Below, piece after piece: positions 1-64,000 of a DNA stretch of 64,000 bases. Positions within the stretch are counted from its first letter, which is position 1. Every line of letters begins with the position of its first letter. A program made the translations under genes and the position numbers. The DNA is taken from positions 189,055-253,054 of the forward strand of contig JACRNB010000002.1 of NCBI GenBank assembly GCA_016219425.1. Direction: 5' to 3'. The notes beneath the pieces are model-generated. The model was given only the letters and a program-made list of their open reading frames with translations, made no database searches and was not told the origin of the DNA. This DNA is from Betaproteobacteria bacterium. GTDB taxonomy: Bacteria; Pseudomonadota; Gammaproteobacteria; Burkholderiales; Thiobacillaceae.

Positions 1-2444
1 GGGGTGGAAAGCCAGAAAGAACGCAGGGTCTCCGGGTGCGTGAGCCACTCCGGCGCGAGTTCCATCACCACGCGGTACTGGTTGAGCGGGTGGTAGATCA
101 CCGACACCAGGCGCTGGCCGAAGGCGCTGTTGAGCGCGCCGTCCACCGCACGCATGGTCAGGCCCAGGCTCGCCATGCGCTCGCGGTCGAACACCAGACG
201 GGTTTGCAGCCCCCTGTCCTTCTGGTCGCTGGACACGTCCGCCAGTTCCGGCAGTTCCGACAGCGCCTTGCGGATGCGCGGCTCCCAGGTGCGCAGGTCG
301 GTCAGGCGGTCGGCCTGGAGGGTGTACTGGTACTGGGAATCGGAAGGGCGTCCGCCGATGCGCACGTCCTGCACCGGGGTGAGAAACAGTTTCGCCCCCG
401 GTTCGTGCGCCAGCTTGCCGCGCAGGCGGTTGACGATCTGGTCGGCGCTGGCGCGGCGTTCGGCCAGGGGTTTGAGGGTGGCGAACATGAAGCCGGAATT
501 GCGCGCCGCGCCGCCGGTGAAGCCCACCACCGTCTCCACATCGGGGTCGCGTTGCACGGCGGCCATCAGGTTCTTCATCTTCTGCTGCATGGCCTGGAAC
601 GAGATGCCCTGGTCCGCCTGCACGCTGCCCGCCAGACGGCCCGTGTCCTGCTGCGGGAAGAAGCCCTTGGCGACCACGCCGTAGAGATGGATGTTGAGGG
701 CGATGGTGGCGACCAGCACCCCCAGCACGATGGGGGCATGGCGCAAGGACCACGCCAGACTGGCGCGGTAGCCGGATTTGAGGCGCTTGAGGAGGCGGGC
801 GGGGAAGGGCGGGCGGTGGCGGTTTTGGATGCGTTGCTCCCTCATCCCCATCCCTTCCCCCGAGGGGGGAAGGGGGTTGGAACCCTCCCCCTCCGGGGGA
901 GGGCAGGGTGAGGGAGCAACGCATCCCCCCCGCCGCCGTCCTCCTTCCGGCCCGCGCCCCTTCAGCCAATGCGCCGCCAGCATCGGCGTCAGGGTCAGCG
1001 ACACCACCATGGACACCAGGATCGCCGCCGACAGCGTCACCGCAAATTCGCGGAACAAGCGCCCGAGGATGCCGCCCATGAACAGGATGGGAATGAACAC
1101 CGCCACCAGCGAAAGGCTGATGGTCACCACGGTGAAGCCGATCTCGCGCACGCCCGTCAGCGCCGCCTGGAACGGCTCCATGCCCGCCTCCAGGTGACGC
1201 ATGATGTTTTCGGTGACGACGATGGCGTCATCCACCACGAAGCCGGTCGCCACGGTCAGGGCCATGAGCGAGAGGTTGTCCAGGCTGTAGCCGCACAGAT
1301 ACATCACGCCGTAGGTCGAGATCAGCGACACCGGCACGGCGATGCTGGGGATCAGCGCCGCGCGCACCCGGCGCAGGAACAGGAACACCACCAGGATCAC
1401 CAGCCCGACCGCGATGGACAGGGTGCGCTCCACCTCGCGCAGGGAACCGCGGATGGTGGCGGTGCGGTCCATCACCGGCTCCAGCGTGATCGCCTGCGGG
1501 ATGGTTGCGCGCAACATGGGCAGCAGCGCGCGCACGCTGTCCACGGTCTCCAGGATGTTGGCGCCGGGCTGGCGGTAGAGGATCAGCAGCACCGCCGGAC
1601 GCCCCACGCCGCCGCGATAGACCGAGCCGAAATGGCGCACGTCCTGCACCGAATCGACCACCTCGCCCACATCAGTCAGGCGCACTGCCGCGCCGTTGCG
1701 ATAGCGCAGGATGAGCGAACCAAAGCCCGCCGCGTCCTTGAGTTGGTCGTTGGCCCCGATCTGCCAGCGTCGCGCCCCATCCTCCACCGCGCCCAGGGGG
1801 CGGTAGACGTTGGCGTTGACGAGGGTGGTGCGCACGTTCTCCAGAGAGAGGCCGGCGTGGTTCAACGCCGTCGGGTTCAGTTCCACCCGCACCGCCGGCA
1901 GCGCGCCGCCGCCGATGCGCACCTCGCCGATGCCCGTCACCTGCGCCAGACGTTGCGCCAGCACGGTGGAGGCGGCGTCGTACACCTGCGCGCGCGTCAT
2001 CGCCTCGGAGGTGAGCGACAGGATCATGATGGGCGAATCCGCCGGGTTCACCTTGCGCCAGGCCGGCATCGACGGCAGCCCGCTCGGCAGCAGCGGACGC
2101 GCCGCCTGGATCGCCGCCTGCACATCGCGCGCCGCGCCGTTGATGTCGCGGTCGAGGTCGAACTGGAGGTTGATGCGGGTATTGCCCAGGGTGCTGGACG
2201 AGGTCATCTCGGTGATGCCGGCGATGCGTCCCAGGGTGCGTTCCAGTGGCGTCGCCACGGTCGCCGCCATGGTTTCCGGGCTCGCCCCCGGCAGCGTCGC
2301 CTGCACCGAAATGGTGGGGAAATCCACCTGCGGCAAGGGCGAAACCGGGAGCTGGAAATAGGCGATGCCCCCCGCCAGGGTCACGCCCAGCGCCAACAGG
2401 CTGGTGGCCACGGGGCGCTGGATGAAGAGGGAGAAGAAACTCAT
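1..2444 (-). CDS. mdtC: RND efflux pump inner-membrane subunit, MdtC/MuxC-like (C-terminus off window)
   Basis: Proton-driven resistance-nodulation-division transporter, second RND subunit of an MdtABC-type heteromeric pump that exports drugs or other small molecules across the envelope with MdtA and an outer-membrane channel. The start at 2444 gives the typical RND N-terminus ([17 protein letters not shown]), followed by a periplasmic domain and the paired proton-relay Asp at about residues 405-406. The frame is open from 2444 to base 1, so about 814 of some 1,030 residues are present and the rest lies outside the window. At about residues 507-538, just after the LTLTPML...HWLK segment, a palindromic element is inserted in frame. 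A 9-bp hairpin (2452-2472) sits over the leader. It is the last visible gene of thiO-mdtA-mdtB-[toxin-antitoxin]-mdtC. Assignment to MdtC rather than another RND rests on order and similarity recognised by eye. Confidence 0.9.
829..924. repeat. GC-rich palindromic element inside mdtC
   Basis: The ends are complementary (atgcgttgctccctca ... tgagggagcaacgcat), with inner C-runs and G-runs that also pair. It is read in frame as a Pro/Gly/Glu-rich stretch (PPPEGEG, PSGEG) without a stop. It belongs to the family seen three times in hrpA. Confidence 0.85.
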
Positions 2445-2451
2445 CGGTCAT

Positions 2452-6342: not shown

Positions 6343-6480
6343 TTGAGCCCCTCTCCCTGGAGGGGAGAGGGGTTGGGGAGAGGGTGGGGGCGGCGTAGCC
6401 GCCCGATGGAGGTCACGAAAAGATCCACGAAAAAGCCCACCCTCTCCCCGACCCTCCCCCCTCCAGGGGGAGGGGGAAAA
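6343..6480. repeat. Intergenic palindromic repeat between mdtA and mdtB
   Basis: C/T-rich and G/A-rich runs face each other (cctctccctggaggggagagg, and ccctccccc ... gggggaggg). The sequence resembles the palindromes inside mdtC and hrpA but lies between genes. It could act as an mRNA-stabilising or attenuating hairpin within the operon (inference). Confidence 0.7.
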
Positions 6481-8883: not shown

Positions 8884-11800
8884 TCAGCGGGTCATCTCCG
8901 ACCACCGCTTTTCCAGCCGCTTTGCCGACACCGGTTCCGGCGTGCGCAGGGTCTGGGCGAACAGGCCCACGCGCAATTCCTCCAGCCGCCAGCGGAAATC
9001 CTCCATCGCCGCGTCTTCCCGTCCCTGGCTCGCCAGCTTGTCGGCGCGCTGGCGCCAGGCCGCGAGCAGCGGGGCCATTTCGTTCATGCTGCCCTGGTCC
9101 CGCGCCGTCTGCTCCGGCAGTTTGCTCAGGCGCAGTTCCATGGCCTTGAGATAGCGCGGCAGGTGGTTCAGGCGTTCCGGGGCATGGGCGGACAGGTAGC
9201 CGGGAAACACCAGGCCTGCCAGTTGTCGGCGCAGGTCGGCGACGGCGTTTCCGGCCTGGGCGGGGGCGCGTTCCAGCGCTTGGCCCAGGCGCTGGGTCGC
9301 AGCCAGGGTGTCGAGGACGATCTCGGCCAGGAGTGCGGCTTTTTGCGGCAGGAGGGGGCGGGCCTGGGTGCAGGCCTGGCTGAAGTCGGCTCGGGTGCGC
9401 GGGGTGCGGTCTTGCATGGCGGCGCGGGCGGCGGCGATGAGCAGGTCGTGGGTCAGGTCTTCGCACACGCGGCCCTTGAACAGCAGGGCGTATTGCAGGC
9501 AAGCGGTCTTGAGGCGGGCGGCGAGGTCGCGCGCGGTCTGTTTGTGCAGGTCGGGAAACTGGAGCCAGACCAGTTGCGCGACGCCCAGCTTGTGAGCGGC
9601 ATGGGCGGCGGCGGCGTGGTCGAACAGGCGCAGACGCAGGTTGCCGGGGGCGTCTTCCAGGGCGGGGAAGGCGGCCACCGTGCGCTGGCCGGCCAGGATC
9701 TCCACCTGTTCCGGCAGGTCTTCGCCGTCGTTGGGCAGATCGTTCCAGCGGGTGATGCGCTCTCGTTCATAAGACTGGGTGGAGCGAGCCAGTTCCGCTG
9801 TCGCGGCCTGGCCCAGTTGCGCGCGCAGGGCGGCCAGGTCGCGCCCGGCGGCCAGGGTCTTGCCGCGCTCGTCCACGACGCGGAAGTTCATGTGTAGATG
9901 CGGCGGCAGCGCTTCCGGTCGCCAGGCGTCGCGCGGGATGGTCTGGCCGGTGGCCTTGGTGAGGAAAGCAGCGAGGGCGTCGGCGAGGGGGGCTACGGGC
10001 GTTGCTCCCTCATCCCCGGCCCTTCCCCCGGCGGGGGAAGGGAGTTGGGCGACGGCGGCGCGGGCGTATTCCGGCACGGGTACGAAGGCGCGGCGGATGC
10101 CTTGCGGCAAGGTTTTGATCAGGGCGGCGATCTTTTCTTCCAGCAGGCCCGGCACCAGCCATTCGCAGGCCAGGGCGGGGATCTGGTTGAGGGCGGCCAG
10201 GGGGACCACCAGGGTGACGCCGTCTTCTTCTGCGCCGGGTTCGAAGCGGTAACTGAGTTCCAGGTCCAGGGAGGCGAAGCGGGGGGGAAACGCGTTCACT
10301 TCTGCGTTGGCGTGGCGGCCCAGCAGGATTTCGCGGGTGAGGAACAGGGCCTTGGGCTGGGTGCGCTCGATTTCGCGCCGCCATTTGTCGAAGGCCGCGC
10401 CGTTGTGGATGCCTGCGGGGACGCGCGCATCGAAGAACGCGTACAGGGTCTGTTCGTCCACATAGAGCCGCGCGTTGCGGGTGCGCTGGGCGAGGTCTTC
10501 CACCTCTTGCAGCAGGCGGCGGTTGTGCTGGAAGAAGGGCGCGCGGGTGTCCCAGTCCCCCGCCACCAGCGCGCCGCGCAGGAATAGTTCGCGCGACAGC
10601 ACGGGGTCGATGGGGCCGTAATGCACCTTGCGTCCGTTCACCACTGGCAGGCCGTAGAGCGTGGCGCGCATGGAGGCGGCCACATGGGCGGGTTTCTTGG
10701 CCCAGTGCGGGTCGGAGTAGCTGATCTTGAGCAGGGGGCGGGCGATGTGTTCGATCCACTCCGGTTCGACCTTGGCGAGGGTGCGGGCATAGACCCGGCG
10801 CGTCTCCACGATTTCCGCCGCCATCACCCATTTCGGCTTCTTCTTCACGCTGGAGCCGGGGAAGGGCAGGAACTTCATCTCGCGCGCCCCGAGGTAGACG
10901 CCGTCTTCGGTGAGCATGCCCAGGTTGCCGAGCAGGCCGGTCATCAGGGCCTGGTGCAGGGGGGCGTAAACGGTGGCTCCCTCCCCTAACGAAGCTCCCT
11001 CCCCCTCCGGGGGAGGGGTGGGGTGAGGGAGCGACGGTAAATTTTGCGGTGGCGGTGAATGAGGCGTTGCTCCCTCACCCGCCCTTCGGGCACCCTCCCC
11101 CGGGGGGGGAGGGGGATCTACCTTCCAGCCCAACTCCTTCACCTGCACCGACAACTGGCCGTAGATGTCGCGCCACTCCCGCACCCGCAGGGGGGAGAGG
11201 AAGTCGGCCTTGAGGGCGTCGCGGAACTTGCGCTGGGACTTGCGGTGGGTGTTGAGCTCGTCCTGGTAGTTCCACAGCTTGAGGATGGCGATGAAGTCGG
11301 AGTTGGCGTCGGCAAAGCGGCGGTGCTTCTCGTCCGCCGCCTGTTGCGCCTCCAGGGGGCGGTCGCGCGGGTCTTGCACGGAGAGGAAGGCGGCGATTAC
11401 CAGGGCTTCGTGCAGCACCGCCTTTTCCTTGGCGGCGATGAGCAGGCGTCCGATGCGCGGGTCCAGGGGCAGGTGGGCGAGCTGGCGGCCCACGGCGGTG
11501 AGGCCGCCGGCCTCGTCCAGCGCGCCCAGTTCGAGCAGGAGTTGCTGACCGTCGCGCACGCGCTTGGGTTCGGGCGCATCGAGAAAGGGGAAGACGTCGA
11601 TCTCGGGCAGGCGCAGGGCTTTCATGCGCAGGATCACGCCCGCCAGGGAGGAGCGCAGGAGTTCCGGCGTGGTGTATTGCGGGCGGGCGAGAAAGTCCTG
11701 TTCGTCGAACAGGCGGATGCAGACGCCCGCCGCCACCCGCCCGCAACGTCCGGCGCGCTGGTTGGCGGAGGCCTGGGACACCTTTTCGATCTTGAGTTGT

Positions 11801-12840
11801 TCGATCTTGTTGCGTAGCGAGTAGCGCTTTACCCGCGCCAGGCCGGCATCCACCACATAGCGGATGCCGGGCACGGTGAGCGAGGTCTCGGCCACGTTGG
11901 TGGCGAGCACGATGCGGCGTCCGGGATGGGAGGCGAATACCCGTTCCTGCTCGGCCACAGAGAGGCGCGCGAACAGGGGCAGGATCTCGGTGTGGGGCGG
12001 GTGGTGTTTGCGCAGGTCTTCCATGGCGTCGCGGATCTCGCGCTCGCCGGGCAGGAACACGAGGATGTCGCCTGGCCCCTCGGCGGCGAGTTCGTCCACG
12101 GCGTGGAGCAGGGCTGCCATGTCCCCCTCCCCCTCCGGGGGAGGGGCTAGGGGTGAGGGAGCAACCTGCGCGGACCGAGACGTTGCTCCCTCACCCGCCC
12201 TGCGGGCGCCCTCCCCCGGGGGGGGAGGGAGTGGGGCTCGGTAGCGCATCTCCACCGGGTAGGTGCGCCCGGAGACTTCGATCACCGGCGCGCCGCTGAA
12301 GTAGGCGGAGAAGCGCTCCGCTTCCAGGGTGGCGGACGAGATCACCAGCCTGAGCTCGGGACGGCGCGGCAGCAGGGTCTTGAGGTAGCCCAGCAGAAAG
12401 TCGATGTTGAGGCTGCGTTCGTGCGCCTCGTCCAGGATCAGGGTGTCGTAGGCGCGGAATTCGGGGTCCGACTGGGTTTCTGCCAGGAGGATGCCGTCGG
12501 TCATCACCTTGATGCGGGAATCCGGCCCCACCTGGTCGGTGAAGCGCACCTGCCAGCCCACCAGGCCGCCCAGTTCGGTCTGCGTTTCCTGGGCGATGCG
12601 GTGGGCCACGGTCTTGGCGGCGATGCGGCGCGGCTGCGTCATGCCCACCCGCCCGTTCACGCCACGGCCCGCTGCCAGGGCGATCTTGGGGAGTTGTGTG
12701 GTCTTGCCGGAGCCGGTCTCGCCGCAGACGATGAGAACCGGGTGGGCGGCCAGGGCGGCGGCGATGTCCGCGCGCCGGGCGGAGACCGGCAAATGCTCCG
12801 GAAAGGTCAGGTCGGGTAATCTTGGGCGGGTATTCGACAT
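8884..12840 (-). CDS. hrpA: ATP-dependent RNA helicase HrpA (DEAH box)
   Basis: Large DEAH-box RNA helicase implicated in mRNA processing and rescue of stalled ribosomes. At 1,318 residues it is close to the usual length. Walker A GETGSGKTTQ lies at about residue 35, DEAH at 137-140, SAT in VISSATLEAERF, and QRAGRCGR in the second RecA domain. Start 12840 (MSNTRPRLPDLTF) was chosen; the upstream in-frame extension overlaps the divergent gene. Three palindromic elements are inserted in frame at about residues 201-240, 573-622 and 931-947, each at a point where family members are contiguous. All are Pro/Gly/Glu-rich (PPPEGEG, AGEGAT) and probably form disordered loops. Only 15 bases separate its start from the divergent gene at 12856. 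Confidence 0.95.
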   Translation of the reverse strand: MSNTRPRLPDLTFPEHLPVSARRADIAAALAAHPVLIVCGETGSGKTTQLPKIALAAGRGVNGRVGMTQPRRIAAKTVAHRIAQETQTELGGLVGWQVRFTDQVGPDSRIKVMTDGILLAETQSDPEFRAYDTLILDEAHERSLNIDFLLGYLKTLLPRRPELRLVISSATLEAERFSAYFSGAPVIEVSGRTYPVEMRYRAPLPPPPGEGARRAGEGATSRSAQVAPSPLAPPPEGEGDMAALLHAVDELAAEGPGDILVFLPGEREIRDAMEDLRKHHPPHTEILPLFARLSVAEQERVFASHPGRRIVLATNVAETSLTVPGIRYVVDAGLARVKRYSLRNKIEQLKIEKVSQASANQRAGRCGRVAAGVCIRLFDEQDFLARPQYTTPELLRSSLAGVILRMKALRLPEIDVFPFLDAPEPKRVRDGQQLLLELGALDEAGGLTAVGRQLAHLPLDPRIGRLLIAAKEKAVLHEALVIAAFLSVQDPRDRPLEAQQAADEKHRRFADANSDFIAILKLWNYQDELNTHRKSQRKFRDALKADFLSPLRVREWRDIYGQLSVQVKELGWKVDPPPPPGEGARRAGEGATPHSPPPQNLPSLPHPTPPPEGEGASLGEGATVYAPLHQALMTGLLGNLGMLTEDGVYLGAREMKFLPFPGSSVKKKPKWVMAAEIVETRRVYARTLAKVEPEWIEHIARPLLKISYSDPHWAKKPAHVAASMRATLYGLPVVNGRKVHYGPIDPVLSRELFLRGALVAGDWDTRAPFFQHNRRLLQEVEDLAQRTRNARLYVDEQTLYAFFDARVPAGIHNGAAFDKWRREIERTQPKALFLTREILLGRHANAEVNAFPPRFASLDLELSYRFEPGAEEDGVTLVVPLAALNQIPALACEWLVPGLLEEKIAALIKTLPQGIRRAFVPVPEYARAAVAQLPSPAGGRAGDEGATPVAPLADALAAFLTKATGQTIPRDAWRPEALPPHLHMNFRVVDERGKTLAAGRDLAALRAQLGQAATAELARSTQSYERERITRWNDLPNDGEDLPEQVEILAGQRTVAAFPALEDAPGNLRLRLFDHAAAAHAAHKLGVAQLVWLQFPDLHKQTARDLAARLKTACLQYALLFKGRVCEDLTHDLLIAAARAAMQDRTPRTRADFSQACTQARPLLPQKAALLAEIVLDTLAATQRLGQALERAPAQAGNAVADLRRQLAGLVFPGYLSAHAPERLNHLPRYLKAMELRLSKLPEQTARDQGSMNEMAPLLAAWRQRADKLASQGREDAAMEDFRWRLEELRVGLFAQTLRTPEPVSAKRLEKRWSEMTR
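10000..10047. repeat. Palindromic element 3 inside hrpA
   Basis: Starts with the shared core cgttgctccctcatcccc, followed by cttcccccggcgggggaag, and is read through in the helicase as about 17 extra residues (AQLPSPAGGRAGDEGATPV). It is the shortest of the three copies in hrpA and carries only one outer arm. Confidence 0.75.
10972..11115. repeat. Palindromic element 2 inside hrpA (double copy)
   Basis: Two head-to-head units (ccccctccgggggagggg...tgagggagc and gttgctccctcacccgcc...ctcccccgggggggga). It adds about 50 Pro/Gly/Glu-rich residues to the helicase without a stop. Confidence 0.8.
12121..12236. repeat. Palindromic element 1 inside hrpA (double copy)
   Basis: Outer units read tccccctccgggggagggg...gtgagggagcaac and gttgctccctcacccgcc...cctcccccggggggggagg. 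It is translated as about 38 residues between the SGRTYPVEMRY segment and the HAVDEL segment, which are contiguous in typical HrpA. Confidence 0.82.
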
Positions 12841-18845: not shown

Positions 18846-18961
18846 TTGATGCGGTTCGCGGCGCTCACCGCATCAACGTGGTCTGTAGGAGCCCGGCTGT
18901 GCCGGGCGATGCGGGGATCAAAGAGGCGAAGCGGGATCGCCCGCCACAGCCGGGCTCCTAC
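18846..18961. repeat. Two intergenic palindromes between pap and ald
   Basis: The first palindrome (18846-18876) reads ttgatgcggttcgcgg...ctcaccgcatcaa. The second (18895-18961) begins gtaggagcccggctgtg and ends cacagccgggctcctac. The second family recurs at 39449 and in part at 56195. They lie downstream of ald and upstream of pap, and may act as terminators of ald transcription (inference). Confidence 0.8.
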
Positions 18962-39099: not shown

Positions 39100-39452
39100 G
39101 CGCATCAAGAGTCGTGGGCGGCGCCCATCGCGGCCTGGATATGTGGCTGCTGCAACGCGCCAGCGCGGTCTATATGGCCTTGTTCCTGGTGTATTTCCTG
39201 GTGGTGATGCTGGCGGCCCCGGCTCTGGATTACGCCGGCTGGCGCGGCCTGTTTCTGCCTGTGGGCATGAAGGTGGCGAGCCTGCTGTTTGTGGTCTCCC
39301 TGCTGACGCATGCCTGGATCGGCCTGCGTGAAATCTTTATGGATTACCTCCACTGTGAGCGCTGCCTGTTGGCGCGTCTGGGCCTGTATTTCGCCTGCGC
39401 CGCCCTCTATCTGGGCTGTCTGGTGTGGACTGTGGACATCCTGTGGCGGTAG
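39096..39452 (+). CDS. sdhD: Succinate dehydrogenase membrane anchor subunit
   Basis: A 118-residue second anchor with three membrane segments. HRGLDMWLLQRASAVYMALFLVYFLV at the N-terminus, then SLLTHAWIGLREIFMDYL with the haem/quinone-site His and Asp, are family hallmarks. It overlaps sdhC. The TAG stop (39450-39452) lies inside a palindromic repeat, so the C-terminus may be set by that element. Confidence 0.93.
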   Translation: MSASRVVGGAHRGLDMWLLQRASAVYMALFLVYFLVVMLAAPALDYAGWRGLFLPVGMKVASLLFVVSLLTHAWIGLREIFMDYLHCERCLLARLGLYFACAALYLGCLVWTVDILWR

Positions 39453-39519
39453 GAGCCCGGCTTGGCCGGGCGGTAGCCGGCTCGCGTTCCCTGATCGCCC
39501 GGCGCAGCCGGGCTCCTAC
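39449..39519. repeat. Palindrome between sdhD and sdhA
   Basis: Begins gtaggagcccggcttggccg and ends gcagccgggctcctac, with inner ccgggcg/cgcccgg pairing. Same family as 18895-18961 and 56195. It includes the sdhD stop. Confidence 0.85.
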
Positions 39520-56160: not shown

Positions 56161-56194
56161 CACGACGCTATGCGGCGGATGACGATGCCACTTT

Positions 56195-56220
56195 GTAGGA
56201 GCCCGGCTGCGCCGGGCGAT
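56195..56220. repeat. Partial palindrome after the ABC transporter gene
   Basis: gtaggagcccggct-gcgccgggcgat carries the left arm and inner hairpin of the 18895/39449 family; the right arm is missing. It suggests an eroded or rearranged copy. The rest of 56161-56444 holds no recognised feature. Confidence 0.65.
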
Positions 56221-56444
56221 GCCAGCCGGATTCAGCCACACCGACTACGCCTCACCACCATCAGCGACGTGGTGGGCGGCACGGACCAGCAAGTAGAAAT
56301 GCGCCATGGGAAGTTGGTTGCCAATGAGGAATGGAGAGAACGGAGGGCGTAAATGTCGATTTAGTCGAAAGCTCGACACACACAGAAAGACGGAAGTACA
56401 GTGCGGACACAGAGGTAGTCAGAACAGAAACTTGGAGATGCAGG

Positions 56445-58382
56445 ATGGACCACGATCCGTTGAGTAGGACGCCTAGGCCCGAGGTGGGGAGTGGACCTCA
56501 GGGTGAGCAGGCGAGCCAATCGCAAGGGGGGGATTCAGCAGAAACCCAATGCAAACCAACTCGACTTTGGTATGGCCAAAAAAATTGGGGCCTGTCCCTG
56601 GATGTCCGTGAAAACATCCAAACCATCACCATCACCGACGCCAACGGCAACCAACACCAACAACTCGGCAGCTACACCACCACCACCGGCCAAACCCGCG
56701 CCGCCACCGACGTCTGGTTCCAGGCCGACCCCACCTACAGCATCGCCACTGAATGGATCGACGTCCCCGACGACATCGCCGCCCTGCCGGACGCCACCGG
56801 CTACGGCCATGTCCGCGACCTGCACCAAGCCATGGCCCGCGACCCCGGCGGCAGGCTGCAACAACTGGTCACCCAATACACCCAGACCAGCGACGCCGCC
56901 CAACGCGACACGATCCTCATTGACCTCATCTACCACTGGACCGGCGTCCAGAACGTGGCCCCCAAGAGCCGGGCTAACTTCTCCTACAACGCGATAGATG
57001 CCCGCAAACTCGAAGCCCTCGAAGAATTCATGGGCCAAGAGTGGTATGGCACTTGGTGCTGGGGCACGCGTGACCACAACCCCCACGGACGCGCCGCCCC
57101 CGTCCTCCTCAACGCTTGGGATCAGCTCAAGGAACTCATCGGCGGCCAACTCATGGCGCAAAGCCACCTCAAACCGCTGTTCGACCGCATCACCTACACC
57201 TGGGACGACACCCGCCAAACCCTGCAAGGCGATCTCACCGGCGTGGCCGCCTATCTGGGAGAGCAGGTCGGCCTGAACCCCAGCGTCACCGCCGACCAGA
57301 CCAGAGACTTCGCCCGCGCCCTCAAGGGCATGGGGGCGCTGGGCAGCGTGGACACGGTCGGCTTCCAGCAAGCCGTGGCCGCCCTGGGCGGCGAGATGGC
57401 CGGCATCCTCAACACCGCCTGGACCGGCCTCGTCGCCACCCAAGGCCACGACACCCTCACCAGCACCGGCAGCGCCAACCAATACCTGCGCGGCCTCGGC
57501 GGCAACGACACCCTCACCACCGGCACGGGCCACGACATCCTCGACGGCGGCACAGGCAACGACACCCTCACCGGCGGCCTGGGCGACGACACCTACCTGA
57601 TGCGCCGGGGAGAGGGGCAGGACATCCTCAATGACGCCGGCGGCAACGACACCCTCAAATTCCTGGAGGTCCAGCCCCACGAGATCACCGTCACCCGCGA
57701 CGCCCAGCATCTCTATCTCACCCTGGCGGATGGCACCCGCACCCGCCTCAGCGGCTGGTTCACCCATACCGCCAACCGCATCGAACGCATCGAATTCGCG
57801 GATGGGAGCCTCCTCACCCCCGCCGAGCTCGAAGCCCGGCTCACCGTAGCCCCCGCCACGCCGGGCAACGACGTGCTCTACGGCACGGCCAACGCCGACC
57901 TCATCCAAGGGCAAGCCGGCAATGACGTCCTCAGCGGTCAATTGGGTGACGACACCCTGCAAGGCGGTGCGGGCAACGACACCCTGGAAGGCGGCCAAGG
58001 CAACGACCTCTACCTCTATGCCCGAGGCGACGGCCAGGACACGATCAGCGACAGCAACGGCATAGATGCCCTACGGATCAGCGCAGGCATCGCCCCGGTG
58101 GAAATTCGCGTCACCCGTGACCACCACCACCTCACCCTCAGCCTCACCGGCGCGATTGACAAGATCACCCTCAGCAACTGGTATGACGCCCCGACCAACC
58201 GGGTAGGACTTGAGGGCAGACAGGTAGCCTGGATGAAGCGAAGCGGAATCCGGGGTGCCTACCTGCATGTGGACCTGGATTCCGCTTTGCTTCATCCAGG
58301 CTACAGCTCGCTGTTTGACCGCATCCGCTACACCTGGGACGACATATGTGCGAATGAGGAAATGTGGAGGAAGGTGGCATGA
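56445..58382 (+). CDS. Truncated RTX calcium-binding protein (short paralogue)
   Basis: A 645-residue predicted T1SS substrate. After about 55 unique polar residues it enters a region nearly identical to the giant RTX protein downstream (NQHQQ-GSYTTTTGQTR, DVWFQADPTYSIATEWIDV, WYGTWCWGTRD). Next come nonapeptide repeats (GGNDTLTTGTG, GGTGNDTLTGG) and HCBP-related modules (VTRDAQHLYLTLADG, RIERIEFADGS). After DAPTNRV, where the paralogue continues ERIEFADG, a palindromic repeat is inserted and read in frame, and then a stray LFDRIRYTWDD copy and a stop. The usual RTX secretion tail is therefore missing. Start 56445 has GGAG upstream. It may be a decaying cassette or a displaced module. Confidence 0.75.
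   Translation: MDHDPLSRTPRPEVGSGPQGEQASQSQGGDSAETQCKPTRLWYGQKNWGLSLDVRENIQTITITDANGNQHQQLGSYTTTTGQTRAATDVWFQADPTYSIATEWIDVPDDIAALPDATGYGHVRDLHQAMARDPGGRLQQLVTQYTQTSDAAQRDTILIDLIYHWTGVQNVAPKSRANFSYNAIDARKLEALEEFMGQEWYGTWCWGTRDHNPHGRAAPVLLNAWDQLKELIGGQLMAQSHLKPLFDRITYTWDDTRQTLQGDLTGVAAYLGEQVGLNPSVTADQTRDFARALKGMGALGSVDTVGFQQAVAALGGEMAGILNTAWTGLVATQGHDTLTSTGSANQYLRGLGGNDTLTTGTGHDILDGGTGNDTLTGGLGDDTYLMRRGEGQDILNDAGGNDTLKFLEVQPHEITVTRDAQHLYLTLADGTRTRLSGWFTHTANRIERIEFADGSLLTPAELEARLTVAPATPGNDVLYGTANADLIQGQAGNDVLSGQLGDDTLQGGAGNDTLEGGQGNDLYLYARGDGQDTISDSNGIDALRISAGIAPVEIRVTRDHHHLTLSLTGAIDKITLSNWYDAPTNRVGLEGRQVAWMKRSGIRGAYLHVDLDSALLHPGYSSLFDRIRYTWDDICANEEMWRKVA
56645..57239 (+). repeat. Duplicated block, copy A (in the truncated RTX gene)
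   Basis: About 595 bp highly similar at nucleotide level to 59626-60229. Synonymous differences are few over long stretches, implying recent duplication or gene conversion. Confidence 0.9.
58224..58304. repeat. Palindromic repeat inserted in the truncated RTX gene
   Basis: Begins gtagcctggatgaagcgaag and ends gctttgcttcatccaggctac, the same family as 26650-26735. It is translated as AWMKRSGIR...LLHPGYS, unrelated to RTX sequence. Confidence 0.88.
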
Positions 58383-58600
58383 GAAATAAACGTGCTCTGC
58401 CCCCATTTTTTTCTGAAAATCGAAAGGGGTAAGCCAATATGAGGATAACAGCGTGAAACGTGAAACTAAGAAATGCGGTAGCGGGGATGAGGCGGAACTG
58501 AACTCGATGGAATTTTCACGAACTGCGAATTGCGGCCTTCAGTTTTTATCCAGGTTGCGCTTGCTCGTCATTCCCATTTTCTAATCAAAAGGCCATCATC

Positions 58601-58780
58601 ATGGAGTTCATTCTTGCAAAATATATGATTGGTGTTGTTATTCTAATTGCCATTGTGGTTGGCGGCACATCAGTAGATGGATTTACAACCAATAAAACAA
58701 AGATAAAAAAATCAAGAACAATCCTCTCGGTAACAGGGGCTGTTTTGTTGCTGCTACTAATCGCCTTTATCTTCATTTAA
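58601..58780 (+). CDS. Small two-helix membrane protein
   Basis: A 59-residue ORF in the gap between the two RTX genes. MEFILAKYMIGVVILIAIVVGG is a first hydrophobic segment, then a polar basic loop (TTNKTKIKKSR), then a second segment, AVLLLLLIAFIFI, at the C-terminus. The ATG is in the context ggccatcatcATGG, very like the context of the giant RTX gene (ggacatcatcATGG). The next gene starts 25 bases after its stop, so they are probably cotranscribed. AT content is higher than in the flanks. No family was recognised; an immunity-like role is only a hypothesis. The rest of 58383-58600 holds no convincing gene. Confidence 0.6.
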   Translation: MEFILAKYMIGVVILIAIVVGGTSVDGFTTNKTKIKKSRTILSVTGAVLLLLLIAFIFI

Positions 58781-58804
58781 TCAATTATTTACAAGGACAT
58801 CATC

Positions 58805-61800
58805 ATGGGAACAACTCGGGCAGTCGTTTTGGGTGGCATCAAAGGTGCAGCGGATTTTTTGCTCAGACCAAGCTGGTGGTGGGACTTCCCTCAACTAGCA
58901 TTGCAGCCGAGTGATGCTGGCAGCTATTCAGATTGGTTCGGAGGAAACCCAAATTACCTAGACGAATATTATTACAACCCACTGGACGGCAAATGGTACA
59001 AAGACATTGAATTGAAGCCAGGCTCTTCAGGACATGCGACACCAGACAAATACATCTGGGAAAACCCAGCCCCCCAGGGAATCCAAGAAAAATTGACCAA
59101 GCACCGCAACGCAATAAAACAACATTTAGATGCACACTCACCAATGGAGCCAATTGAAAGGAGCGCCACCACCGCCACCACCATCCGCTCCCCAATAATC
59201 CTAGACCTAGACAACGACGGCATAGAAACCACCCCTGTCACCGCCGGCACCTATTTCGACCACGCAAACGACGGTTTCGCCGAACGCACCGGCTGGGTCG
59301 GCGCAGACGACGGCCTCTTAGTCCGCGACCTCAACAACAACGGCACCATCGACAGCGGCCAGGAACTCTTCGGCTCTGAAACCCTGCTCGCGAGTGGGCC
59401 AAATGCGGGCACCAAAGCCCCCAACGGCTTCGAAGCCCTCAAAGAACTCGATCAGAACAAAGACGGCAAGCTCGACAGTGCCGACGCCGCCTTCGCCACC
59501 CTGCGCATCTGGCAAGACACCGACGGCGACGGGTTCACCTCCGCAGGCGAACTCCACACCCTCACCGACAAAAACATCCAATCCATCCAAACCGCCTACA
59601 CCACCGGCACCACCACCGACGCCCACGGCAACCAACACCAACAACAGGGCAGCTACACCACCACCACCGGCCAAACCCGCACCGCCACCGACGTCTGGTT
59701 CCAAGCCGACCCCACCTACAGCATCGCCACCGAGTGGATCGACGTCTCCGACGACATCGCCGCCTTGCCGGACGCCACCGGCTACGGCCATGTCCGCGAC
59801 CTCCACCAAGCCATGGCCCGCGACCCCGGCGGCAGGCTGCAACAACTCGTCACCCAATACACCCAGACCAGCGACGCCGCCCAACGCGACACGATCCTCA
59901 CCGACCTCATCTACCACTGGACCGGCGTACAAAACATCGACCCCAAAAGCCGCGCCGCCCGCCTCATCTACGGCAACGTCATCGGCGACGCCCGCAAGTT
60001 GGAAGCCCTCGAAGAATTCCTGGGCCAGGAATGGGTCGGCACCTGGTGCTGGGGCACCCGCGACCCCAACCCCCACGGACGCGCCGCCCCCGTCCTCCTC
60101 CAAGCCTGGGACCAACTCAAAGAACTCATCGGCGCCCAGCTCATGGCGCAAAGCCACCTCAAACCGATGTTCGACCGCATCACCTACACCTGGGACGACA
60201 CCCGCCAGACCCTGCAAGGCGACCTCACCCAAGTCGCCGCCTGGATCGGCGCACAACTCACCGGCGACCACACTGCAGGCCTGCAGCAAACTGCCGATTT
60301 CTCCCGCGCTCTGCGGGGGATGAGCGCGCTCGGTAGCGTGGACATCCAACACTTCCAGCAAGCACTCCTACCTCTGGGTGAAGATGTCCTGGGTGTATTC
60401 AACAGCGCCTCGGCAGGACTCTTGCCCACAGAAAACAACGACATCCTCAGCACCAAGGGCAGTAGCAACCAGTATCTGCGCGGGCTAGGTGGAAACGACC
60501 TACTTACCACCGGCGATGGCAACGACACTCTGGACGGAGGATTGGGTGACGACACCCTCAAAGGCGGCCAGGGGGATGACCTCTACCTCTACACCCAAGG
60601 ACGCGATAGCGTTCAAGACGCTGGCGGCACTGACATCCTCGAACTGCGTGAGATTCAACCCGACCAGATCACCATCACCCGAGACGCCCAACACCTCTAT
60701 CTCACCCTGCCCAACGGAGACAGGGCCAAGATCGCCGACTGGTTCCTCTCCCCCGCCTACCGTATTGAACGTATCCGGTTCGGTGACGGTACAGAGCGCA
60801 CGGCGGATGAGATCGAAGCCCTGGTCAGTCTCACGCAAGCCTGGAGCACGGATGACCAACTCTATGGAAGCAGTGTGGCCGATTCCATGAACGGCTACGC
60901 CGGAGATGACTTTCTGGCAGGTTACCAGGGCGACGACACCCTGGATGGGGGCGCGGGCAACGACGCACTGCAAGGTGGGGATGGCAACGACCTCTATCTG
61001 TTTGGCAGCGGAGATGGTCAAGACACCCTCACCGATGGCAACGGCGTTGACACCTTGCGGTTCAAGGATGACGTTACCCCTGCGGATATCCTGGTGCGGC
61101 GCAATTCGCACCATGTCTTCCTCACCCACACCGGAACCGGGGCTCGACTCACCCTACAGAACTGGTACGACGCCAATAACAACCGGGTGGAACGCATTGA
61201 ATTCGCCGATGGCACAACCTGGGATGTAGCGCACGTGGAAATCCTGGCCAACCAGCCCACCGCAAAAGCGGATTACCTGGGCGGTAGCCCCAATGCCGAT
61301 ACCTTGGAAGGGCAGGGCGGTAACGATGAGATCGACGGCGGTGCAGGGGATGACCAGTTGGATGGCGGATCGGGCGCGGATGTCCTATTAGGCGGGGCAG
61401 GAAACGACACGCTGGAGGGCGGCACGGGAGACGACACCCTGGAAGGCGGCCAGGGCGACGATATCTATCTCTTCGGTCGCGGATCAGGTCAAGACAGCAT
61501 TACCGAGAACGACTCCACGTTGGGCAATGTGGACACTATCCGTCTGACGGAAGGGCTCACTCCCACAGATATCCAAATCACTCGCGACCCATGGGATTTG
61601 TATCTCCGCATACGCGGCACGAATGACCAGATCACGATGAAAAACTGGTTCACATTCGACTCGGCAAGAGTGGAGCGACTGGAATTTGCGGATGGCGTGG
61701 TTTGGGATGCAGCTAGGCTCGTCCAGGAGACGTTGATTCCTACCGAGGACTCTGATGTTCTGCTGGGCTTTACCGGTGACGATGTCATACATGGCGCGGG

Positions 61801-64000
61801 CGGTGATGACCATATTGAAGCCGGAGCCGGATCGGATCACATTGAGGGAGGGGTGGGGGCGGACGCGATCAATGGTGGAGAGGGCAATGACACTTACACT
61901 TTTAATCTTGGCGACGGAGCCGACACACTTATTGATACGGGGGGATATGACGTCCTTCGTTTTGGTTCTGGCATCTCCGCAACGGATGTCGCTTGGTCAC
62001 GCAGCGGATTGAATTTGGAGCTTGCTCATACCAATGGCACGGACAAGATAACAATTGCCAACTGGTTTTCTCAGGATTGGTGGAATACCCGATTTGAGCG
62101 CATTGACTTCGCAGATGGTACAGCTTGGCATCGTGGTTCCTTTGATGGGCAGGTTCAAACCATTACGGGAACGAATGGCGCCGACACATTGGCTGCGTCT
62201 ACTGGCTACGATTATATAGTCACTGGTCTTGAAGGAAGCGATCAGATCACAGGCGGATACGGACTGGACTTTTTTGTCGGGGGTGCGGGTAATGACAGAA
62301 TCTCTGGCCGGGGTGGTTCTGATACCTATTTTTTTAATCTTGGAGATGGCACGGATACGATAATTGAGGAGAGTGGAATTGGTTATCAAAGCCCATTCGA
62401 CGTACTCAAATTCGGCCCAGGAATTCATCCAGAAGACATTACCGCCAAACGCATTGGCTTGGACTTGGAACTTAGGCATCGCAATGGTTCAGACAAGGTT
62501 ATTCTCTCGGGCTGGTATCAAACCATTGACGGCCAATACAAGCTGGAGCGAGTGGATTTCACGGACGGCACGCAATGGAGCCAGGCCTATTTGACCGACC
62601 TTGGGTTGCATATTGATGGAACCGACGGAAACGATCTTCTGGAAGGAACCAAATTTAACGACACCATTCAAGGAATGGCTGGCGACGACACCCTCAAGGG
62701 CGGCAGAGGCGACGATTTCTTCCACGGAGGCGCTGGCAATGACCTGCTGGACGACTACGGACAAGAATATGGGAACTATGGCGGCGCCAACACCTATCTT
62801 TTCAATCTGGGAGATGGGGTCGATACGATTGTCGAATACGGCGGCGCATCGGAAGTAGGCGACGACACGCTCCGTTTTGGTCCAGGCATTCTGGCTTCGG
62901 ATATTCAGGTTGTGCGTGAAGGCGTCAATCTGGCTTTCCGACATGGCAATGGTCAGGACAAAGTCATCGTATTGAACGTCTATTCATCGGATCAAGCCTT
63001 CACCCCCTTGGAACGAGTGGAATTCGCGGATGGAACGATATGGGGCCGTGAAGAACTGGCCCGGCTCAAGGAACAGGGACTGATAGCGGAGGGTGGCGCG
63101 GGGGATGACCTGCTCCGGGGTGTCAATAACTACCGCAACACCCTTCTTGGGCAGGCAGGAAATGACACGCTGGACGGCGGAAACAGTGCGGACACCTTGA
63201 TGGGCGGAGAAGGTGACGACCGCATAACCGGTTTCGAGGGCAACGACACCTTGATGGGCGGGCGGGGCAACGATGTGTTGTCCGGTAGAGAAGGCACTGA
63301 CACCTATCTCTTCAACCTTGGAGACGGCCAGGATCGTGTGATTGGTGCGGCATGGAGTTCCGTTGCCTCTGCGGACGTGTTGCGCTTTGGCCCTGGCATT
63401 TCCATGACGGATATCCAACTGGGGCGCGATGGGGATGACCTGCTCCTGCATCACGTCAACGGACAGGATGGCGTTGTGGTGGCGGAGTGGTTTCGCTTTA
63501 CCGAAAGACCTCTTGCAGCGGTGGAATTTGCGGATGGCCAAATCTGGACGGCGGCAGACCTGAGTGCTCAAACCCGATATTTGGGATACGACGGCGCTGC
63601 GGGCAACGACCTTCTCAAAGGCACGTCCACCAGCAACGACACCCTGCGCGGCTTCGGCGGAGACGATGAACTGCATGGCCTGTATGGCAAGGACACGCTG
63701 TACGGCGGTGACGGCGCGGATGCCCTGATGGGCGAAGAAGGCGCCGACACCCTATACGGGGAAGCGGGTGACGACACCTTGCAAGGAGGCATCGAGGCAG
63801 ACCAGCTTTATGGGGGCGATGGCGCGGACATCCTGCAAGGCGGATCGGGGCAGGACGTCTATCACGGCGGAGCAGGAAACGACCTATTCCAGGAAGGCAA
63901 TGACGGTTACGGCCCCCTTGAGAATTCCGACACCTACCTGTTTGGTTTGGGTGATGGCACGGACACCATCCAGGAATCAGCATGGGCCTACCGAGGAAGC
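58805..64000 (+). CDS. Giant RTX calcium-binding protein (C-terminus off window)
   Basis: A continuous frame of 1,732 residues to the window edge, likely exported by the adjacent T1SS. Residues 1-130 are a distinct, less GC-rich N-terminus with aromatic residues (PSWWWDFPQ, YLDEYYYNPLDGKWY). A calcium-binding loop region follows (about 132-200; DLDNDGIETTP, DLNNNGTIDSGQELFG, DQNKDGKLDSADAAF), then the block shared with the short paralogue (275-475). From about residue 550, clusters of nonapeptides (GGAGNDTLEGG, GGDGADALMG) alternate with HCBP-related modules ending in ERIEFADGT or similar, at least nine times. AAGGA precedes the ATG. The secretion signal would lie beyond the edge. Possible adhesin, bacteriocin or surface layer; the role is undetermined. 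Confidence 0.88.
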   Translation, partial: MGTTRAVVLGGIKGAADFLLRPSWWWDFPQLALQPSDAGSYSDWFGGNPNYLDEYYYNPLDGKWYKDIELKPGSSGHATPDKYIWENPAPQGIQEKLTKHRNAIKQHLDAHSPMEPIERSATTATTIRSPIILDLDNDGIETTPVTAGTYFDHANDGFAERTGWVGADDGLLVRDLNNNGTIDSGQELFGSETLLASGPNAGTKAPNGFEALKELDQNKDGKLDSADAAFATLRIWQDTDGDGFTSAGELHTLTDKNIQSIQTAYTTGTTTDAHGNQHQQQGSYTTTTGQTRTATDVWFQADPTYSIATEWIDVSDDIAALPDATGYGHVRDLHQAMARDPGGRLQQLVTQYTQTSDAAQRDTILTDLIYHWTGVQNIDPKSRAARLIYGNVIGDARKLEALEEFLGQEWVGTWCWGTRDPNPHGRAAPVLLQAWDQLKELIGAQLMAQSHLKPMFDRITYTWDDTRQTLQGDLTQVAAWIGAQLTGDHTAGLQQTADFSRALRGMSALGSVDIQHFQQALLPLGEDVLGVFNSASAGLLPTENNDILSTKGSSNQYLRGLGGNDLLTTGDGNDTLDGGLGDDTLKGGQGDDLYLYTQGRDSVQDAGGTDILELREIQPDQITITRDAQHLYLTLPNGDRAKIADWFLSPAYRIERIRFGDGTERTADEIEALVSLTQAWSTDDQLYGSSVADSMNGYAGDDFLAGYQGDDTLDGGAGNDALQGGDGNDLYLFGSGDGQDTLTDGNGVDTLRFKDDVTPADILVRRNSHHVFLTHTGTGARLTLQNWYDANNNRVERIEFADGTTWDVAHVEILANQPTAKADYLGGSPNADTLEGQGGNDEIDGGAGDDQLDGGSGADVLLGGAGNDTLEGGTGDDTLEGGQGDDIYLFGRGSGQDSITENDSTLGNVDTIRLTEGLTPTDIQITRDPWDLYLRIRGTNDQITMKNWFTFDSARVERLEFADGVVWDAARLVQETLIPTEDSDVLLGFTGDDVIHGAGGDDHIEAGAGSDHIEGGVGADAINGGEGNDTYTFNLGDGADTLIDTGGYDVLRFGSGISATDVAWSRSGLNLELAHTNGTDKITIANWFSQDWWNTRFERIDFADGTAWHRGSFDGQVQTITGTNGADTLAASTGYDYIVTGLEGSDQITGGYGLDFFVGGAGNDRISGRGGSDTYFFNLGDGTDTIIEESGIGYQSPFDVLKFGPGIHPEDITAKRIGLDLELRHRNGSDKVILSGWYQTIDGQYKLERVDFTDGTQWSQAYLTDLGLHIDGTDGNDLLEGTKFNDTIQGMAGDDTLKGGRGDDFFHGGAGNDLLDDYGQEYGNYGGANTYLFNLGDGVDTIVEYGGASEVGDDTLRFGPGILASDIQVVREGVNLAFRHGNGQDKVIVLNVYSSDQAFTPLERVEFADGTIWGREELARLKEQGLIAEGGAGDDLLRGVNNYRNTLLGQAGNDTLDGGNSADTLMGGEGDDRITGFEGNDTLMGGRGNDVLSGREGTDTYLFNLGDGQDRVIGAAWSSVASADVLRFGPGISMTDIQLGRDGDDLLLHHVNGQDGVVVAEWFRFTERPLAAVEFADGQIWTAADLSAQTRYLGYDGAAGNDLLKGTSTSNDTLRGFGGDDELHGLYGKDTLYGGDGADALMGEEGADTLYGEAGDDTLQGGIEADQLYGGDGADILQGGSGQDVYHGGAGNDLFQEGNDGYGPLENSDTYLFGLGDGTDTIQESAWAYRGS
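59626..60229 (+). repeat. Duplicated block, copy B (in the giant RTX gene)
   Basis: Partner of 56645-57239, about 604 bp, with one 9-base length difference near the AARLIYGNVIG segment. The reading frame is preserved in both. Confidence 0.9.

Follow-up and report, generated by a model that had tools for sequence, protein, structure and literature searches.

Palindromic DNA lying in frame inside bacterial protein genes is already known. Rickettsia palindromic elements (RPEs), 105–146 bp long, occur in frame in conserved genes, and Rickettsia gmk has been assayed with and without its insert (PMC2229807); in 2013 intragenic repetitive extragenic palindromes (REPs) of the GTAG and CGTC classes were reported from PolI, tRNA synthetase, RNA helicase and repair genes of several bacteria, with RPE-4 and RPE-6 assigned to the CGTC class and with different REPs at about the same recB site in two Xanthomonas (PMC3733652). 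The accessible part of that paper reports no dedicated enzyme for the CGTC REPs. REPINs, which are non-autonomous inverted doublets, are linked to one enzyme gene that sits beside the same units, that of the REP-associated tyrosine transposase (RAYT) (PMC3116915). Here we examine a 64-kb stretch of a Thiobacillaceae genome (contig JACRNB010000002.1, positions 189,055–253,054; hereafter the window), in which hrpA, the gene for a DEAH-box RNA helicase, carries three in-frame palindromic inserts, and we describe the association of these palindromes with genes for the nuclease family DUF559 (PF04480). The new part is this candidate partner. With a probability of roughly 0.62, we read the palindromes as a mobile family in which the full element would be palindrome–DUF559–palindrome, gene-less doublets would be derived from it, and DUF559 would be the means of spread.

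Palindromic inserts in hrpA

The hrpA product matched the Pfam families DEAD, Helicase_C, HA2_C, OB_NTP_bind and DUF3418 and, in the Protein Data Bank (PDB), E. coli HrpA (9ggr, E = 0). An initial annotation of the window had described three in-frame palindromic insertions in this gene, which we confirmed as five clear units and one weak unit in three places (Table 1). The unit, whose consensus was built by aligning 44 of the 59 units with an exact tag, consists of a 12-nt tag, GTTGCTCCCTCA, then C-rich DNA, and then a hairpin of ~8–10 bp, CCCCTCCCCC-GGN-GGGGGAGGGG. The 3.1-Mb genome holds 59 exact copies of the tag, compared with 0 for a reversed-pattern control, and 6 of them fall inside the window; when two mismatches were allowed, the window count was not above that of shuffled sequences (9 versus 6.3). 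The pattern CTCCCCC(N0–8)GGGGGAG matched 6 times in the window (0.04 expected). Doublets B (10985–11120) and C folded much better than shuffled versions of themselves (Table 1), and the lone unit of insert A (9999–10050) folded no better than shuffles (z −1.0). The occurrence of three loci within one pre-named gene had a P of 5e-5 to 1.4e-4, with the qualification that hrpA itself was chosen post hoc.

A covariance model of the palindromic unit, which we call R1, matched at least 152 times in this genome and 1–149 times in 24 relatives, with at most about 150 candidates scored per genome. Among 75 loci that we classified (a subset of these matches, comprising the copies around the listed ones), 50 were doublets, of which 45 had their tags facing inward, and the commonest element lengths were 117 nt (11 loci) and 104–105 nt (11 loci). 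The hrpA inserts appear to be copies of a miniature, probably mobile palindrome, typically a doublet of ~105–117 nt whose 12-nt tags face across a short spacer.

Table 1. Features of the window, with the units of each palindromic copy and the evidence for them (R1 scores in bits).
Feature	Coordinates	Strand	Composition	Evidence
hrpA, DEAH-box RNA helicase	8884..12840	-	1318 aa, ATG at 12840	ORF + Pfam + PDB match
Insert A	10001..10045	+	Single palindromic unit (TTCCCC variant), read as LPSPAGGRAGDEGAT	R1 68.5; alignment with relatives
Insert B	10973..11117	.	Doublet 10994-11035 (-), 11066-11117 (+), and weak third unit 10973-11021 (+, 24 bits); read as PPPPPGEGARRAGEGAT...SLPHPTPPPEGEGASLGEGAT	R1 55.1, 43.8, 24; fold z -7.9
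Insert C	12121..12233	.	Doublet 12121-12165 (-), 12182-12233 (+); read as PLPPPPGEGARRAGEGAT...VAPSPLAPPPEGEG	R1 71.1, 39.5; fold z -5.7
Fourth in-frame copy	833..920	.	833-877 (+), 879-920 (-)	R1 65.1, 51.6
Weak doublet	6346..6477	.	6346-6384 (-), 6440-6477 (+)	R1 21.7, 23.9

DUF559 genes and their flanking palindromes

RecG of this genome contains a DUF559 domain (profile score for PF04480, 131 bits; cut-off, 20.6) that is in frame and enclosed by two facing units, and the domain is absent from RecG of six relatives. In the following, G000 is this genome, other G numbers are the genomes compared with it, and L numbers are loci. A search of 17 of the 25 genomes G000–G024, from the genus and family, returned 18 strong and 2 weak PF04480 matches. 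Within 250 bp of the strong ones we found the CCYTCYCCC pattern at 6 loci and the CCCCTTT pattern at 8; the remaining four comprised L287, with an R1 match, L293, with a related hairpin, and L296 and L298, with no such palindrome. L296 (in G008) and L298 (in G009) are closely related DUF559 copies with similar surroundings, possibly a settled form.

Composites of palindromes and DUF559 showed the plain facing arrangement at L294, L288, L285 and L283, and L294, L288 and L285, but not the others, shared arms and orientation with the doublets. In YgiQ, G014 holds a DUF559 composite at HPDPYAA|, the very residue that bears only short units in this genome; an origin of doublets from composites would predict such a shared site. 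When we built a FastTree phylogeny of 46 DUF559 domains, all 8 that are flanked by CCCCTTT..AAAGGGG fell into one 9-member clade (support 0.99); both palindrome types are present in G000, G019 and G020, yet the CCCCTTT-flanked nucleases keep to that clade. Six copies in large open reading frames (ORFs) formed another clade (0.87), their hosts being RecG, HsdR, PglX, YgiQ, an amidotransferase and a methyltransferase-like ORF (weak match only). A DUF559 domain fused before MurB (L320) fell outside the large-ORF clade, L325 had no host-family match, and the long DUF559 ORFs L284, L286, L289, L314 and L317 lay outside the family search.

The association extended to other Pseudomonadota. In a sample of the phylum, which is Pseudomonadota to judge by the named HrpA relatives, 161 of 397 genomes matched PF04480 at E 0.001, weak matches included. 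Around the 28 best-scoring loci from other genomes (L303–L330), a palindrome of the CCYTCYCCC type lay within 100 bp at 19, and on both sides within 200 bp at 8. HNH endonuclease loci of DUF559-bearing genomes had the pattern in 0 of 30 cases within 100 bp, 1 of 30 within 200 bp and 2 of 30 within 600 bp. RAYT loci had it in 0 of 26 cases within 1480 bp, 4 of 30 having been removed for short flanks. Hairpin scores were also higher next to DUF559 than in the distal segments of each locus (28 loci, L289 left out; p 6e-12).

At the level of whole genomes, three or more palindromes were present in 38 of 40 genomes with strong DUF559 matches and in 5 of 40 without (p 6e-15), and the presence of RAYT did not predict palindromes in these 80 genomes (25 of 48 with RAYT versus 18 of 32 without, p 0.72). 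In all five families that include both kinds of genome, the median was higher for those with DUF559; two families, f27 and f30, each include palindrome-rich genomes without it. The DUF559-bearing set was taken by hand from a score ranking, with G000, G256, G095, G150, G260 and G313 left out; the other set combined 12 of 20 listed no-match genomes with 28 that had weak matches only (E 2.5e-6 to 8.8e-4). Before counting, the sets had been cut from 97 to 80 genomes by removing 5 with and 12 without DUF559.

Among individual named records, the pattern flanks the DUF559 gene on both sides in plasmid AZO_p3 of A. lipoferum 4B, a related hairpin (score 8) lies upstream of the gene in four A. brasilense plasmids, and by eye a decayed palindrome copy lies downstream of ycjD, the DUF559 gene of E. 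coli. The ycjD stretch was matched in 3365 of 5426 E. coli genomes. The gene (locus L391) sits in the interval from sapF to fabI, which in other E. coli holds the eef efflux operon (PMC12817139). No match was obtained when phage records were searched with one DUF559 domain.

With PDB matches at E ≥0.03 treated as chance, the DUF559 profile matched 3hrl, an 'Endonuclease-Like Protein' (2.5e-39), and had a weak match to 3r3p, a 'Mobile intron protein' (0.0011) that we take to be I-Bth0305I. Residues E14, D43, E54, H60 and D67 were invariant in 32 of 32 domains, and D56 was conserved in 31 of 32. The EDxHD family of homing endonucleases has been described (PMC3943268), a YcjD profile detects Vsr (PMC1189080), and in Caulobacter cells that lack the methylase ScmA, the DUF559 protein VsrA causes a DNA-damage response (PMC12907096).

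Coding context of the copies

We assigned a coding context to each of the 75 loci with a hexamer model that had learned from 29 long window ORFs and was applied to 240-bp flanks with fixed cut-offs, after excluding by hand low-scoring opposite-strand half-matches to the hairpin (model ~20–42) and clusters less than 120 bp from a fetched end. Thirty-two loci were strictly in frame, 10 were in frame on one side, 18 lay between frames on the same strand and 15 had a non-coding side. At 16 of the 18 same-strand out-of-frame loci, the stop codon of the upstream gene preceded the element by 3–28 bp, and at the other 2 it lay within the element. The 42 in-frame loci were spread over 34 ORFs. With the same model, trained on this genome, G019 had 32 loci (10 strictly and 4 one-sidedly in frame) and G014 had 10 (5 and 2).

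Of 30 host ORFs submitted to NCBIfam, 26 matched a family at 1e-10, among them PolA, RecG, Mfd, SMC, AcnA, MetH, PurL, HemF, HemW, MurD, Mpl, KdsB, HypF, Lpd and AceF, as well as the four tRNA synthetases MetG, ValS, LeuS and IleS; L003 and L027 lay outside this search, and two host ORFs in the window were identified by Pfam. The fourth in-frame copy of the window lies in an ORF for an AcrB/AcrD/AcrF-family permease (3–2447, minus strand; Pfam ACR_tran), and the weak doublet lies between two minus-strand ORFs, 10 bp past the end of the upstream one. Elsewhere in the genome, two adjoining ORFs at L170 (G000:C10:231834-236652), without an NCBIfam match, contain four R1 loci and a PPFSKGGPGGI peptide.

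The initial annotation had supposed that many registers would bring in a stop codon, which our tally contradicted: five of the six unit registers were open in 170–171 of 173 units, and the sixth was open in 38 of 173. Maintaining the reading frame nevertheless demands a suitable insert length. The frames in use were far from even. Pooling the five-prime arms of in-frame loci from G000, G019 and G014, and omitting units with more than 4 tag mismatches or shorter than 38 nt, we found 47 of 55 in the EGAT frame (LPSPxGGGAGGEGAT), 6 in the REQ frame and 2 in the frame that usually contains TGA; among the 54 arms in which the EGAT and REQ frames were both open, the split was 46 versus 6 (p 1e-8). 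The 38 three-prime arms were read as VAPS (18), LLP (19) or CSL (1). Stop codons by themselves are insufficient to account for this bias, which could come from a preferred insertion phase or from selection on the peptide. Because 42 of 75 loci were in frame within genes and one frame dominated, the genome-wide search and tallies bore out the annotation's suggestion of in-frame insertion; as far as we tested, we found neither shared non-palindromic linkers nor a lack of frame bias.

The annotation had also taken the helicase to be normally contiguous at the insert sites. Aligning HrpA with 23 relatives (3 partial) instead placed all three inserts in loops that vary in length and sequence, and other palindromes occupied the same loops in other species. 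Hairpin scores of at least 8 occurred in 24 of 64 HrpA loops (64 of 72 could be delimited), compared with 42 of 483 control segments taken from these genes (p 1e-8), and by eye the loop palindromes included the R1 type, a CCCCCCTTT..AAAGGGGGG type, GTAG-like forms and ATTCC..GGAAT types. Loop A, for example, carries R1 here and the CCCCCCTTT..AAAGGGGGG type in G006, G016 and G019. That different palindrome families occupy one loop argues for such loops being permissive sites. Sequence alignment to PDB 9ggr placed sites C and A at short loops of E. coli HrpA and site B where there is almost no loop, and because the inserts map to short loops it is plausible that their peptides are disordered.

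In ten further genes, each compared across five relatives (MetG and PolA) or six (the other eight), the site held the insert in some species and was empty or otherwise composed in the rest. IleS had a clear insert only in this genome and G019, with the G004 protein ~ten residues longer than the empty form; the HemF site was empty in G020, G015 and G004; and ValS had a different repeat-like segment in G014 and G020. For each gene, the pattern of filled and empty sites would fit either shared ancestry with loss or repeated insertion. In G022, the LPSP inserts of HemF (L253) and PolA (L274) share an additional peptide, IPKxRGFIRG, perhaps a nested repeat.

The window also contains other repeats. 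A second palindrome family, D13 (TGTAGGAGCCCGGCTG.GCCGGGCGATGC, with GTAG near one end), occurs at 18884–18912, 39448–39476 and 56194–56222, and the region ~56600–63900 contains 27-nt repeats of the GGxAACGACACC type (D1, D2) and two 300-nt blocks that are 95% alike (D3), which suggests a large RTX-like protein.

Candidate mechanism, rival explanations and known systems

In the model that we favor, the full element would be a DUF559 gene between two palindromes, and the short doublets would be derivatives that lack the gene, much as miniature inverted-repeat transposable elements derive from transposons. DUF559, as a Vsr-like endonuclease, may mobilize the family through nicks or cuts at either the palindromes or the target sites, with copies inserted as a result. 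Insertions that break genes would be purged, and we propose that it is because selection removes them that the surviving copies lie in frame in tolerant loops or just past stop codons. A broader version, which we would put at even odds, is that this is a phylum-wide mobile class unlike REP/RAYT, in which each palindrome family would be spread by its own DUF559; one clade would have specialized in in-frame insertion, its nuclease becoming a domain of hosts such as RecG and its gene-less derivatives being the coding palindromes of hrpA.

The same observations could arise if the DUF559 gene were the mobile part and existing palindromes its landing sites, in the way that REPs, known targets for IS insertion (PMC3733652), serve some insertion sequences. 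The RecG composite does resemble a doublet with a gene set in its spacer. We nonetheless consider this unlikely: landing sites should be common without DUF559, and only 5 of 40 sampled genomes lacking strong DUF559 had three or more palindromes, three of the five belonging to genera in which other sampled genomes have DUF559. Moreover, palindrome types that are specific to a nuclease clade fit a partnership better than landing sites. A functional explanation, in which the palindromes are kept for mRNA stability, supercoiling or termination and spread by chance recombination, with DUF559 a repair nuclease that merely lies near hairpins, would suit the sixteen loci just past stop codons, a position shared with REPs that have RNA roles. 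We judge it improbable, since 42 of 75 classified loci lie inside genes, a position that makes such roles less likely, and the HNH genes of the same genomes lacked the proximity (0 of 30 within 100 bp).

Two other explanations appeared very improbable, and we rejected both. One is that these are ordinary REPs moved by RAYT transposases (Y1_Tnp): the genome does have two PF01797 matches, and the inverted doublets resemble REPINs. By eye, however, both PF01797 genes are flanked by different palindromes with GTAG ends, the CCYTCYCCC palindrome was at none of the 26 RAYT loci (the R1 unit was not searched for around RAYTs of other genomes), and RAYT had no link with palindromes over the 80 genomes. 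The other is that the inserts are inherited low-complexity linkers in orthologous loops. Several genes do share an insert position between two or more species, and the PolA site was filled in all five relatives examined. What decided against linkers were the empty alleles of IleS, HemF, KdsB and LeuS and the unrelated palindromes within one loop (HrpA loop A); the insert DNA is, besides, palindromic and multicopy. Stem covariation is modest: 7 cells were changed on both sides, compared with 1.0 in shuffles, and 6 of the 7 were at one pair.

Several points weigh against a mobile family spread by DUF559. We observed neither movement nor cleavage nor target duplication, the species being too divergent for a duplication to be read, and a nuclease gene landing in pre-existing palindromes would yield similar flanks. 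In print, VsrA is tied to cytosine-methylation repair (PMC12907096). The exact pattern was not nearby at 9 of the 28 phylum loci, 5 of the 6 named records failed to match the pattern itself, and 2 of the 18 genus and family loci (L296, L298) had no flanking palindrome. Only some composites are plainly facing, L284 and L286 having model matches on one side. Three or more palindromes occurred without strong DUF559 in G283 (133), G387 (92), G391 (22), G066 (8) and G360 (5), and G398 and G051 have DUF559 with zero palindromes. Both genome sets were drawn from score-ranked lists, and kinship inflates the genome counts, with this order or family making up 16 of the 40 genomes without DUF559 and 4 of the 40 with it.

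If palindromes and DUF559 do form a mobile system, a small nuclease would be tied to another large class of repeats, as a direct and testable candidate. Through such a system, mobile DNA could supply essential proteins with extra peptides or even an entire nuclease domain, and its inserts would mark insertion-tolerant loops in helicases and tRNA synthetases. In the open-license literature that we searched, no paper was found that links DUF559 with palindromes.

The likeness to the RPEs that the initial annotation had drawn, in another lineage and sequence family, holds as an analogy. Both are palindromic repeats in frame inside conserved protein genes; the family described here differs in its lineage (the closest named HrpA relatives are beta- and gammaproteobacterial), its tagged-hairpin doublet, its linked nuclease family and its copies at the same loops across species. 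The unit consensus lacks the CGTC end, which sets it apart from RPE-4 and RPE-6 by that end, no RPE sequence having been aligned, and it has neither the GTAG nor the CGTC end of the intragenic REPs reported in 2013. A weak 3r3p match (E 0.0011), invariant acidic and His residues, and a nuclease gene inside host genes may bring DUF559 near the EDxHD homing endonucleases (I-Bth0305I), but no intron or intein was seen and the host protein retains the insert. E. coli YcjD and Caulobacter VsrA belong to the same family, and their published roles are repair or unknown, with no link to palindromes in the accessible parts of those papers (PMC1189080, PMC12907096). Like REPINs, the palindromes described here are present in high copy in inverted doublets (45 of 50 with tags inward); unlike REP/RAYT systems, their tag GTTGCTCCCTCA has no GTAG end, their pattern does not flank RAYT genes (0 of 26), 42 of 75 copies lie inside genes, and the candidate enzyme is a Vsr-like endonuclease rather than a tyrosine transposase.

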